Source: Mucilaginibacter arboris (GTDB lineage: Bacteria; Bacteroidota; Bacteroidia; Sphingobacteriales; Sphingobacteriaceae). Taken from it: DNA of 64,000 bases. The notes under the pieces are model-generated. The model was not told the origin of the DNA, did not search any database, and was given only the letters and a program-made list of their open reading frames with translations. The DNA lies in the NCBI RefSeq assembly GCF_009754915.1, contig NZ_WPIK01000001.1, forward strand, positions 248,001 to 312,000. Direction: 5' to 3'. Below are positions 35,885 through 39,398 of this stretch, in pieces. The number at the start of each line of letters is the position of its first letter. The stretch's first letter is position 1. The position numbers were made by a program, and so were the translations under genes.

Positions 35885-35896
35885 ATACTTCTTTTA
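35885..35896 (+). repeat. Repeat core with one mismatch overlapping a start codon
   Basis: ATACTTCTTTTA, whose last A begins the ATG of the next gene, the same geometry as at 6927. Confidence 0.6.
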
Positions 35897-36336
35897 TGTA
35901 CCCTTTTTTTAAATATTTACATTCCGGATTTCGTTACATTGTACTTATTTTAGTTGTAGCAGCTATTATTCAGGCACTTTTAGGATGGTTGGGCAAAAAA
36001 ACTTATACGGAAAGCAATCGTAAACTGAATCTTTTTGCGCTGATCTCGGCACATACACAACTGCTTATTGGTTTGGTTTTGTACTTTTTAAGTCCGCTTG
36101 TCCAATTTTCCAATGCAACAATGAAAGATGCGACAGCACGTTACTGGACAGTAGAACATCTTACCATGATGATCATTGCAATTGTATTGATTACTGTTGG
36201 TTACTCACGTTCTAAAAAGATTTTATTGCCAGAAAAGAAGCATGCTAACATTTTCATTTTCTATCTTTTAGCCGCCATAATTGTAATTGTTACACTTGTT
36301 TTGAGCCATCGGGGCGTACTTGGAATGTCAGTCTGA
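35896..36336 (+). CDS. Four-helix membrane protein with conserved His, cytochrome b-like
   Basis: A 146-residue inner membrane protein with four hydrophobic helices (about 12-30, 45-68, 88-108 and 118-140). His residues sit near helix ends (YLHSGFRY, ISAHTQLLIG, WTVEHLTMM), a pattern consistent with heme b or quinone binding, and similar Bacteroidota proteins are labelled cytochrome B. It is upstream of the trp leader but separated by 57 bases and probably independent. Function not established. Confidence 0.75.
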   Translation: MYPFFKYLHSGFRYIVLILVVAAIIQALLGWLGKKTYTESNRKLNLFALISAHTQLLIGLVLYFLSPLVQFSNATMKDATARYWTVEHLTMMIIAIVLITVGYSRSKKILLPEKKHANIFIFYLLAAIIVIVTLVLSHRGVLGMSV

Positions 36337-36393
36337 AAAATATTTTTCTAAAAAAATTTGCAGGTTCATTTTTATTTCTAATTTTGTTAAACA

Positions 36394-36462
36394 ATGATGA
36401 ATCAAAACCATAATAACAACTGGCAAAGTCTTCCTAAAAGGAAAGCCGGATGGTGTTTTTGA
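36394..36462 (+). CDS. trp operon leader peptide
   Basis: A 22-codon frame, MMNQNHNNNWQSL and then PKRKAGWCF, with Trp codons at positions 10 and 20. It lies upstream of trpE and is followed by an intrinsic terminator ending nine bases before the trpE start. This is the layout of ribosome-mediated attenuation: stalling at Trp codons when charged tRNA-Trp is low would prevent terminator formation. GCCGG within codons 18-19 (36445-36449) is complementary to CCGGC in the terminator arm (36500-36504), so an antiterminator is possible. Confidence 0.8.
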   Translation: MMNQNHNNNWQSLPKRKAGWCF

Positions 36463-36496
36463 TTTTTCCTACCTAATCAACTATAAACCTGATATG

Positions 36497-36527
36497 AACC
36501 CGGCCGTAAACACGAGCCGGGTTTTTT
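36497..36527 (+). terminator. trp attenuator terminator
   Basis: Stem AACCCGGC/GCCGGGTT (36497-36504, 36516-36523) with an 11-base loop and a run of six T, between the leader peptide and trpE on the coding strand. Confidence 0.88.
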
Positions 36528-36536
36528 AATATTACA

Positions 36537-37940
36537 ATGAAATATAAATTAACCTCTACTTACAAAAAACTTTTAGCTGATACAGCCACTCCTGTAAGCA
36601 TCTATTTAAAGTTGCGCGATGTATTTCCAAACAGCTTATTGCTGGAAAGTTCTGATTACCATAGCCGCGAAAACAGCATGAGCTACATCTGCTGCGAACC
36701 GATAGCCGGAATGATTCTTCAGGCTGGAAAATTGGTAAACCAGTTTCCGGATGGCAAGCAACAGGAGTTTGAGGCAGGAACATTTGATCTGGTTACGCAT
36801 ATAGAAGCGTTTCTGGAACTGTTTGAAACCAATGCCGTTCCTTTAAAAATTATTTCAAATGGTTTGTTTGGTTATTTTTCTCATGAAATTGTAGAGCATT
36901 TTGAAACCATCAAACTAAAAAAAGAAGATGATTACCGTGGCATTCCGGAAATGCAATACTACGTTTACCGGTATATTATCGCGGTCGATCATTTTAAAAA
37001 TGAACTGTGCATTTTCGAGAACCAGGCAGAAAACGACCCGAAACCATCCGGGTTGAAAAAAATCCAATATCTCATCCAGAACAAAAACTTCCCCGAATAT
37101 CATTTTAATTTAAAGGGGGAAGAAAGCTCGAATTTAAGAAATGAAGAATTTATAGCTATTGTTGAGAAAATGCAGCAGCATATCCTGCGCGGTGATGTTT
37201 TCCAGATTGTACCTTCCAGGGCCTTTAGCCAGCAATTTCAGGGCGACGAATTTAATGTTTACCGCGCCTTGCGTTCCATCAACCCTTCGCCGTATTTGTT
37301 TTATTTTGATTATGGCAGTTTTAAAATTTTCGGTTCCTCTCCCGAAGCACAAATCACCATTAAAAACAGAACTGCAACGATTTACCCAATTGCCGGAACA
37401 TTTAAGCGGACTGGCGATGACGAAAAAGATGCGCAATTAGCAAGAGCTTTAGAAAGCGACCCGAAAGAATCTGCAGAACACGTTATGCTGGTAGATCTGG
37501 CACGAAATGATTTAAGCCGCCATTGTACTAACGTAGAAGTGCAGGCTTTTAAAGAAGTTCAGTATTACTCTCATTTAATCCATTTAGTTTCACGTGTTAG
37601 CGGTAAAATTAAACCTGGCATTCCTTCTTTTAAAGTTGTTGCAGATACTTATCCGGCGGGCACTTTAAGTGGTGCACCAAAATACCGCGCTATGGAATTG
37701 ATTGATGCCTACGAGAAAGGCAAAAGAAGTTTTTACAGCGGCGCAATTGGTTTTTTAGGTTTTAACGGCGATTTTAACCATGCCATTATTATCCGCTCTT
37801 TTTTAAGCAAAGCAAATGTGTTACATTACCAGGCCGGTGCCGGAATTGTTGCTGATTCTGTTCCGGTAAGCGAATTAAACGAAGTAAACAATAAAGTTGC
37901 TGCTTTGCGAAAAGCATTGGAAACAGCTACAGAAATTTAA
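36537..37940 (+). CDS. trpE: Anthranilate synthase component I
   Basis: Makes anthranilate from chorismate using ammonia from TrpG. The 467-residue protein has the N-terminal feedback region with LLESSDYHSRENSMSYI (the LLES motif of Trp inhibition), and the chorismate-binding core with DVFQIVPSRAF, YPIAGTFKRTGDDEKD, LVDLARNDLSRHC, YPAGTLSGAPKYRAMELID and AGAGIVADS. First gene of trpE-trpG-trpC, under the attenuator just upstream. Confidence 0.97.
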   Translation: MKYKLTSTYKKLLADTATPVSIYLKLRDVFPNSLLLESSDYHSRENSMSYICCEPIAGMILQAGKLVNQFPDGKQQEFEAGTFDLVTHIEAFLELFETNAVPLKIISNGLFGYFSHEIVEHFETIKLKKEDDYRGIPEMQYYVYRYIIAVDHFKNELCIFENQAENDPKPSGLKKIQYLIQNKNFPEYHFNLKGEESSNLRNEEFIAIVEKMQQHILRGDVFQIVPSRAFSQQFQGDEFNVYRALRSINPSPYLFYFDYGSFKIFGSSPEAQITIKNRTATIYPIAGTFKRTGDDEKDAQLARALESDPKESAEHVMLVDLARNDLSRHCTNVEVQAFKEVQYYSHLIHLVSRVSGKIKPGIPSFKVVADTYPAGTLSGAPKYRAMELIDAYEKGKRSFYSGAIGFLGFNGDFNHAIIIRSFLSKANVLHYQAGAGIVADSVPVSELNEVNNKVAALRKALETATEI

Positions 37941-37957: not shown

Positions 37958-38587
37958 ATGAGCAATCCGGAAATATTAATCATTGATAATTACGATTCTT
38001 TTACTTACAACTTAGTTCATTTAGTGAATGAGCTTGGATTGGAATGCGAAGTTTGGCGCAACGATCAGTTTAAGCTGGAAGATGTTGCTGCTTTTGATAA
38101 GATTATTTTATCGCCTGGACCGGGTATTCCGTCGGAAGCTGGTTTATTGTTAAAAGTGATCGAAACCTATGCACCAACAAAAAGCATGTTTGGCGTTTGT
38201 TTAGGACAGCAGGCAATTGCCGAAGTTTTTGGCGGAGAATTATATAATTTAAACCGTCCAATGCATGGTTTATCAACACCAATAAAAGTTACGGACATAG
38301 AAGAAAAACTTTTCTCCGGATTGCCGGAAACGTTTAACGTTGGCCGTTATCATTCCTGGGTTGTATCAGAAAAAGGTTTGCCGGAAGAAATATTAATCAC
38401 TGCAATTGATGAAAAAGATAACTCTATAATGGCCCTGCGGCATAAAAAGTATGATGTTCGTGGCGTTCAATTCCATCCAGAATCTGTGTTAACAGAACAC
38501 GGAAAAAAAATGATGCACAATTGGCTAATGGGAACGGAAACGAAAGCTGATCCGGAATTAGTAGCTAATCATTTTATAAAACTATAA
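37958..38587 (+). CDS. trpG: Anthranilate synthase component II (glutamine amidotransferase)
   Basis: Supplies ammonia from glutamine to TrpE. The class I amidotransferase triad is visible: Cys in GVCLGQQAI, and His and Glu in QFHPESVLT. The oxyanion region reads LSPGPGIPSEAG. The 209 residues are slightly longer than usual, with a short C-terminal tail. It may also serve folate synthesis as PabA. Confidence 0.96.
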   Translation: MSNPEILIIDNYDSFTYNLVHLVNELGLECEVWRNDQFKLEDVAAFDKIILSPGPGIPSEAGLLLKVIETYAPTKSMFGVCLGQQAIAEVFGGELYNLNRPMHGLSTPIKVTDIEEKLFSGLPETFNVGRYHSWVVSEKGLPEEILITAIDEKDNSIMALRHKKYDVRGVQFHPESVLTEHGKKMMHNWLMGTETKADPELVANHFIKL

Positions 38588-38612: not shown

Positions 38613-39398
38613 ATGATAACTATTTTAGACCGAATTGTTGCCCGAAAAAAGGTAGAAGTACAGGCTTCAAAAAGCAAAACTTCTTACATAAAACTGGAAG
38701 AATCAGAGTATTTTAGCCGCAAGCCTTATTCTTTCCGCGAGTTTTTGCTCGATCCTACCAAAAGCGGAATTATTGCAGAATTTAAACGAAAATCGCCATC
38801 AAAAGGAATTATTAACGATCGGGCAAAAGTTAAAAATGTAACGCAAGCTTATGCAGCAGCAGGCGCTTCGGCATTGTCTGTTTTAACAGATCGTGCTTTT
38901 TTTATGGGTAAAAAAAGCGATTTGATACAAGCACGAAAAGCTAATCAAATCCCGGTTTTGAGGAAAGATTTTATGATTGATGAATATCAGGTTATCGAAG
39001 CAAAAGCGCTTGGAGCAGATATAATTTTGCTGATTGCAGCGATTTTATCTCCGCAGGAAATCAAAAAAATGGCAGAACTGGCCAAAAGTTTAGGCTTAAA
39101 TGTTTTGCTGGAAGTACATAATCTGGAAGAACTGGAAAGAAGTTTAGATCAAAACTTAGATGCAATCGGCGTAAATAACCGCAACCTGGCAGATTTTACC
39201 GTTTCGGTTGATACTTCTTTTACCCTGATAAAATCTATACCGGCAGAGTTTTTGAAGGTTTCGGAAAGCGCAATTTCTGATCCGGAAACTATCCGTCAGT
39301 TAAAAGAAGCTGGTTTTAACGGCTTTCTGATTGGTGAGAATTTTATGAAAGAAGCTGATCCGGGAGCAGCAATGAAGGAATTTGTTGGGAAGATTTAA
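38613..39398 (+). CDS. trpC: Indole-3-glycerol phosphate synthase
   Basis: Ring closure of CdRP to indole-3-glycerol phosphate, a TIM-barrel enzyme of 261 residues. Catalytic motifs are IIAEFKRKSPSKG, LRKDFMIDEYQV, ADIILLIAAIL, LLEVHNLEELE, GVNNRNL and SESAISDPETI. trpD, which acts between TrpEG and this step, is not encoded before it, nor are trpF, trpB or trpA found after it within the window. Confidence 0.96.
   Translation: MITILDRIVARKKVEVQASKSKTSYIKLEESEYFSRKPYSFREFLLDPTKSGIIAEFKRKSPSKGIINDRAKVKNVTQAYAAAGASALSVLTDRAFFMGKKSDLIQARKANQIPVLRKDFMIDEYQVIEAKALGADIILLIAAILSPQEIKKMAELAKSLGLNVLLEVHNLEELERSLDQNLDAIGVNNRNLADFTVSVDTSFTLIKSIPAEFLKVSESAISDPETIRQLKEAGFNGFLIGENFMKEADPGAAMKEFVGKI

Follow-up and report, generated by a model that had tools for sequence, protein, structure and literature searches.

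In Escherichia coli the trpL leader has two tandem Trp codons and its AUG lies after a Shine-Dalgarno leader, and ribosome-mediated attenuation of this type needs a ribosome close behind the polymerase. The leader described here lies upstream of trpE in the 64,000-nucleotide stretch of Mucilaginibacter arboris DNA that was analysed (the window). It resembles trpL in its Trp leader peptide and in its predicted, mutually exclusive pairings 1:2, 2:3 and 3:4, but differs in having one conserved Trp codon rather than two in tandem and a start codon very close to where the RNA is predicted to begin rather than after a Shine-Dalgarno leader. The general scheme of exclusive attenuator pairings has been set out together with the trpLE(G) system of Sinorhizobium meliloti, which is like the present locus in that its leader RNA starts at the trpL AUG and its trp genes are split over operons, and unlike it in being experimentally based and in having a leader RNA that acts in trans on trpDC mRNA (PMC7298713).

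Within Bacteroidetes, the Bacteroid-trp RNA (RF01692) was listed in 2010 as probably cis-regulatory (Weinberg 2010, PMC2864571), a 2019 paper describes it as an E. coli-like structured leader before the Flavobacterium psychrophilum trp operon (PMC6414381), and a paper of 2021 gives strong indications of leader-peptide attenuation ahead of amino-acid biosynthesis operons in the same species (PMC9723704). These F. psychrophilum attenuators share with our locus the leader-peptide type within Bacteroidetes, with a Bacteroid-Trp RNA before the trp operon, but they belong to another family, and the relevant parts of the two papers hold no sequence-level account of the trpE type described here (PMC9723704, PMC6414381). 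The 29 RF01692 matches retrieved from a phylum sample likewise have a terminator, and Trp occurs as doublets or triplets in their leaders, but their strand 2 and terminator sequences differ from those of the window, which has GCCGG/CCGGC. An earlier reading of the window from its letters (the sequence-only reading) had called the mechanism best known from Proteobacteria, which is fair, but RF01692 and leader-peptide attenuation in Flavobacterium had already been reported. Trp attenuators in Bacteroidetes are not new, and from the open-licence literature that we searched we claim no first report. A comparative study of bacterial attenuation by Lopatovskaya and others (2010) may already list such leaders. 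Set against this background, there is little doubt that the feature is a true trp attenuator; its kind is ordinary, and a few of its particulars are informative.

The leader locus

The features of the locus are collected in Table 1. The leader frame, its Trp codons 10 and 20, the small hairpin, GCCGG and CCGGC, and the terminator before trpE are all present in the letters and at the coordinates that the sequence-only reading had given. Its possible pause hairpin exists as a small helix and had been drawn too short, as the outer helix encloses it in a 1:2 hairpin of about 73 nt. The RNA from 36391 to 36530 has a computed folding energy of -37 kcal/mol, with a z of -3.96 relative to 200 dinucleotide shuffles, and nine bases separate the T run of the terminator from the trpE ATG. 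Terminator 3:4 is absent from the output of a simple terminator scan, probably because of the scan's loop limit of 8 and a bulge in the stem.

Table 1. Features of the trpE leader locus, in window coordinates
Feature	Position	Strand	Remarks
Predicted Bacteroidota sigma-A promoter	36357..36386	+	TTTG 36357-36360; -7 box TAATTTTG 36379-36386
Leader peptide frame MMNQNHNNNWQSLPKRKAGWCF	36394..36462	+	22 codons plus stop; ATG 36394, TGA 36460-36462
Trp codons in leader frame	codon 10, 36421-36423; codon 20, 36451-36453	+	from the sequence
Hairpin 1:2	36396..36468	+	strand 1 36396-36424, strand 2 36445-36468; from fold and covariation
Outer helix of 1:2	36399-36407/36457-36465	+	
Inner helix of 1:2, CTGGC/GCCGG	36420-36424/36445-36449	+	
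Small hairpin elements	GGC 36422-36424; GCC 36445-36447	+	TTCC/GGAA inside; from the sequence
GCCGG, strand 2	36445..36449	+	can pair with CCGGC 36500-36504 (antiterminator 2:3)
CCGGC	36500-36504	+	5′ arm of terminator
Linker AATCAACTATAAACC	36475..36489	+	predicted upper part of antiterminator, with U-rich part of strand 2
Intrinsic terminator 3:4	36496..36527	+	stem 36496-36524, T run 36522-36527
trpE, anthranilate synthase component I	36537..37940	+	best NCBIfam match TIGR00564, 423 bits, below cut-off of 517.7
trpG, glutamine amidotransferase	37958..38587	+	TIGR00566 above cut-off
trpC, indole-3-glycerol phosphate synthase	38613..39398	+	NF001377 above cut-off; final trp gene of cluster

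A further short frame, MNPAVNTSRVF (36494-36529), crosses the terminator in the window; its ATG is present in both same-genus relatives and absent in several other relatives.

Conservation across the family and class

A TrpE search of the family gave a match in 297 of 301 genomes; among the weaker ones, with E of about 1e-35 to 1e-52, some are probably paralogues. We studied 70 trpE upstream regions, namely the window's own, the 29 best-scoring relatives and 40 picked for genus spread, a non-random sample in which 27 of 70 come from one genus (g14) and which spans 13 of 25 genera (g1, g2, g3, g6, g11, g12, g13, g14, g18, g20, g21, g22 and g25). The genera outside it are g4, g5, g7, g8, g9, g10, g15, g16, g17, g19, g23 and g24; a g16 locus from the class search (L147) also has a Trp leader. 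The same layout of leader frame, GC hairpin, T run and trpE is found in all 70 regions, so that the leader frame and terminator, on whose conservation in close relatives the sequence-only reading had staked its claim, are both kept. Leader frames are 14 to 28 codons long, and the first Trp, counted from the outermost start, stands at codon 8 in 9 loci, codon 10 in 50 and codon 11 in 11.

The hairpin could instead terminate transcription of the upstream gene (35896-36336) or attenuate to a fixed degree, the frame beside it having arisen by chance, and it does have the form of an ordinary intrinsic terminator. It lies, however, about 160 bases past the upstream gene and directly before trpE, and the frame, the Trp position and the 1:2 pairing are conserved over 13 genera. 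A composite scan for a promoter box, a short frame having Trp at one of codons 7-13 and a GC hairpin with T run returned this site alone in the window, and the combination occurred in none of 20 first-order Markov sequences of 64 kb; with the promoter box left out, the scan gave one extra window site (31377, minus strand) against 0.3 per control. We regard this explanation as most improbable.

With a threshold of E <= 0.01, a model (R1) built from an alignment of 30 leaders (A1, below) had a match in 106 of 121 genomes of the family, although many of the weak matches may be plain terminators. The best 16 all lie directly 5′ of a TrpE-search match, 6 of these 16 genomes having supplied sequences to the model, and one match precedes a pheA-like gene (G040). 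The trpE type can thus be modelled. RF01692 misses the window's copy, and annotation resting on RF01692 will likewise miss that copy.

Outside the family, the 25 best-scoring trpE loci of the class were read. A short frame containing Trp precedes trpE in 21 of them; its Trp codons are in tandem or nearly so in 18, and it has a single Trp in three, all of one family. No Trp frame lies upstream of trpE in L163 and no clear leader in L168, where only about 150 bases are available, and the upstream regions of L156 and L169 run off the contig. The distance from promoter to start is more variable in this sample than in the family, exceeding 15 nt in some loci. The three loci with a single Trp (L148, L151 and L153) place it at codon 4, in MKLWQ..., and make a second case of a one-Trp leader.

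Predicted alternative pairings of the leader RNA

Alignment A1 comprises three leaders of the window's genus and 27 of g14. Its 1:2 hairpin plus terminator has 82.2% of cells paired, a covariation of 0.212 against 0.122 +/- 0.008 when shuffled (reached by 0 of 500), and both-sided changes in 13 of 30 pairs; the best slid copy scores 0.129, a control that favours this structure as it was taken from the fold of a member (L014). With RNAalifold, the A1 consensus retains the terminator and the inner helix of 1:2 and lacks the outer one. Pairing 2:3 shows conservation in A1, at 83% of cells, with covariation at the shuffled level (0.042 vs 0.043). A second alignment, A2, comprises 24 leaders from seven further genera, the remaining 16 of the 70 falling outside both alignments, and its helices were picked from the folds of L048 (1:2) and L063 (2:3). 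Here both pairings covary: 1:2 scores 0.213 against 0.119 shuffled (0/500; slid copies at most 0.157) and 2:3 scores 0.123 against 0.068 (0/500; slid copies at most 0.059). Counts of both-sided changes in A2 are not above those of shuffles, 359 (1:2) and 475 (2:3) of 500 reaching them. The covarying stems for which the sequence-only reading had suggested looking are therefore present for 1:2 and the terminator in A1 and for 1:2 and 2:3 in A2, but are not detectable for 2:3 in the window's own group.

Duplex energies were compared with shuffles over all 70 leaders, the terminator of L043, used in these and the swap tests, being assigned by hand. The mean z is -1.49 for 1:2 (p <= 0.05 in 28/70) and -1.97 for 2:3 (p <= 0.05 in 36/70). 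Own strands beat those of other genera by 3.3 (1:2) and 3.1 (2:3) kcal/mol on average, an advantage missing for 1:2 in g13 and g22 and for 2:3 in g1, and among swaps between genera they rank in the top 5% for 14/70 (1:2) and 7/70 (2:3). For the window's genus, the 1:2 helix has z of -3.2, -2.1 and -2.4 in its three genomes, while 2:3 gives p of 0.335, 0.175 and 0.13 against shuffles and pairs no better than with the strands of other genera. The five-base pairing GCCGG/CCGGC taken alone reaches p <= 0.05 against composition shuffles in 12/70, a count made with a wrong, automatically assigned terminator for L043, and we rejected it as stand-alone evidence since a pairing of this length fails to outscore shuffles in most leaders. 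Taken together, the alignments and energies support 1:2 widely and 2:3 in several genera, whereas in the window's genus 2:3 is suggested by conservation alone.

The linker AATCAACTATAAACC is near-invariant in the window's group. Its predicted pairing with strand 2 is conserved in A1 without covariation, and the counterpart of this pairing covaries in A2. The linker seems to be conserved beyond the need of its weak predicted pairing with strand 2, and a further role is possible.

Predicted promoter and position of the leader start

A -7-like box, NNNNTTTG, stands 4 to 13 nt 5′ of the outermost leader start in all 70 trpE loci and has the form TAnnTTTG in 62 of them. In F. psychrophilum the -7 box occupies -12 to -5 relative to the start site (PMC9723704), and box spacings of 4-5 nt were used in F. 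johnsoniae (PMC6847099). From these published Flavobacterium spacings we predict that transcription starts at about 36391, some 3 nt 5′ of the leader ATG; the same spacings, applied to the box distances, predict untranslated leaders of about 0-9 nt across the 70 trpE loci. For comparison, leaderless mRNAs make up 5.5% of those mapped in F. psychrophilum, with a median leader of 24 nt (PMC9723704), about 3.7% of leaders are under 10 nt in Bacteroides thetaiotaomicron (PMC7366714), and 87% are over 10 nt in F. johnsoniae (PMC6847099).

As a control on LEADERLESSNESS we turned to the his leaders of the family, and found a TTTG box no more than 13 nt from the start in 3/30 as against 70/70 for trpE. 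No TTTG box occurs within 40 nt in 13/29 his loci, and hence the distance there is not necessarily long. With 3/30 for the his leaders, we reject the idea that leaderless initiation is general among the amino-acid attenuators of the family, and the near-leaderless layout is therefore at most a trp-specific trait, or merely the geometry of these hairpins.

Trp codons and the leaders before trpD

Codons 10 and 11 of the window leader are TGG CAA and the next Trp follows ten codons later; throughout the window's genus TGG CAA or TGG CGG gives one Trp at this place. Near codon 10, each of the remaining 67 leaders of the family carries a Trp doublet, a triplet or TGG-N-TGG, a set reduced in the window to Trp10. 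Tandem Trp codons, which are common in trp attenuators and not strictly defining for them, are absent from the window leader. The sequence-only reading had described a two-Trp leader, with codons 10 and 20; taken to mean two control codons, this is not supported. We correct it to one control codon and reject Trp20 as a second, because codon 20 is not conserved within the genus (TGG in two of the three genomes and TAG in one) and starts one base after GCCGG, within strand 2, where a stalled ribosome would be expected to cover strand 2 and to favour termination. Trp10, which lies inside hairpin 1:2, is likely to be the only control codon.

RF01692 matches above cut-off in 27/296 phylum genomes, under stricter filters that lose weak matches, and in 12/101 family genomes, four of them above cut-off. 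All eight retrieved family loci have a Trp-triplet leader of a sequence type unlike the trpE leader; a TrpD-like start lies just downstream of the match in L035, L037, L038 and L039, and the matches in G017, G039 and G052 adjoin trpD matches. Judged by these neighbours, the family matches with a downstream gene examined belong to a putative second attenuator, before trpD. A trpD match was found in 50/61 family genomes, and 30 trpD loci were read, 26 of which have a Trp leader before trpD, all outside the window's genus. In that genus no Trp leader precedes trpD in 3/3 genomes (L110, the window's own genome, contig C56; L115; L116), two of the three keeping a terminator hairpin. In L143 the contig ends about 190 bases before trpD and no leader lies in that stretch; the overlapping end of a second contig from that genome (L033) carries a Trp leader. 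In the window's genome trpD and trpB lie on a contig other than that of trpE-G-C. The trpE leader RNA acting in trans on trpD was considered and rejected, the pairing giving p of 0.62, 0.49 and 0.50 against shuffles in the three genus genomes.

The trpE attenuator may have decayed or may barely respond, having lost second and third Trp codons, its leader in this genus mainly setting a constant read-through; that only Trp10 is conserved within the genus and that the sister trpD attenuator is without a Trp leader there both fit such decay. Yet the frame, the 1:2 helix and the terminator are all kept in the three genus genomes, and single-Trp leaders occur elsewhere in the class, so that we consider decay unlikely, although a single conserved Trp codon could be a weak sensor. 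With its trp set split between two attenuators, and the Trp leader of one of them missing in a single genus, the family offers a natural experiment, on a small scale, in the tuning and loss of switches.

Proposed model and other possible sensors

We propose, with high confidence, that a classical ribosome-mediated transcription attenuator controls trpE-G-C in response to charged tRNA-Trp. This core of the sequence-only reading is strongly supported by conservation and covariation, in contrast to a role of both Trp codons in control. RNA polymerase would start about 3 nt before the leader AUG, with the leader then translated almost from the 5′ end of the transcript. When Trp-tRNA is ample, the ribosome would pass Trp10, reach the stop codon and cover strand 2, allowing the terminator 3:4 to form ahead of trpE. 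When Trp-tRNA is scarce, the ribosome, which we infer to be the sensor, would stall at Trp10 within strand 1, and strand 2, with its GCCGG and U-rich segment, would then pair with the linker and the terminator's 5′ arm. Providing this 2:3 pairing forms, transcription would run on into trpE.

The same terminator might be governed by some other tryptophan sensor, such as a T-box, a site for a TRAP-like protein or a TnaC-like arrest of the nascent peptide, and TnaC likewise has a single key Trp codon. The peptide apart from Trp varies widely between genera, however, unlike an arrest peptide. No T-box scores above the Rfam threshold in the window or appears among 18 weak matches over the leader, and only a tRNA reaches its gathering score in the whole window. 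The amino-acid leader families give only a weak His_leader match (13.8 vs 49 bits). On the Rfam matches and the variable peptide we hold another sensor to be highly improbable. The 18 matches themselves (E 0.004-10; RcsR1, anti-hemB, His_leader and others) fall far below gathering scores and were rejected, those over the hairpin resembling generic terminator matches. RF01692 itself gives no match in the window at the gathering threshold (49 bits), none over the leader at E <= 10, and none in the window's own genome at E <= 0.001.

If the attenuator is read correctly, ribosome-mediated attenuation is widespread before trpE in a family of a phylum without Shine-Dalgarno sequences, and the element offers a handle on whether translation is coupled to transcription in this phylum. 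A wider reading, which we put forward tentatively and regard as less likely than not, is that it is specifically the trp attenuators of these bacteria that use ribosome loading at the extreme 5′ end of the RNA for the timing between ribosome and polymerase, that two such switches, differing in sequence type, run the split trp genes of the family, and that the window's genus has dismantled one of these and pared the other to a single sensing codon.

Other amino-acid leaders

Phe-rich frames precede pheA-like genes in 14/30 loci (L213-L242) by a loose criterion and are too mixed to use; several resemble AYWFFGYFYFxSKSRD, and those of L225, L236 and L241 look like chance frames. Attenuators of his genes look general in the family, a His-rich leader frame being found before hisG in 30/30 family loci (L183-L212), among them that of the window's own genome, MKKYFIYLHHHHHSTQV (L210, contig C83).
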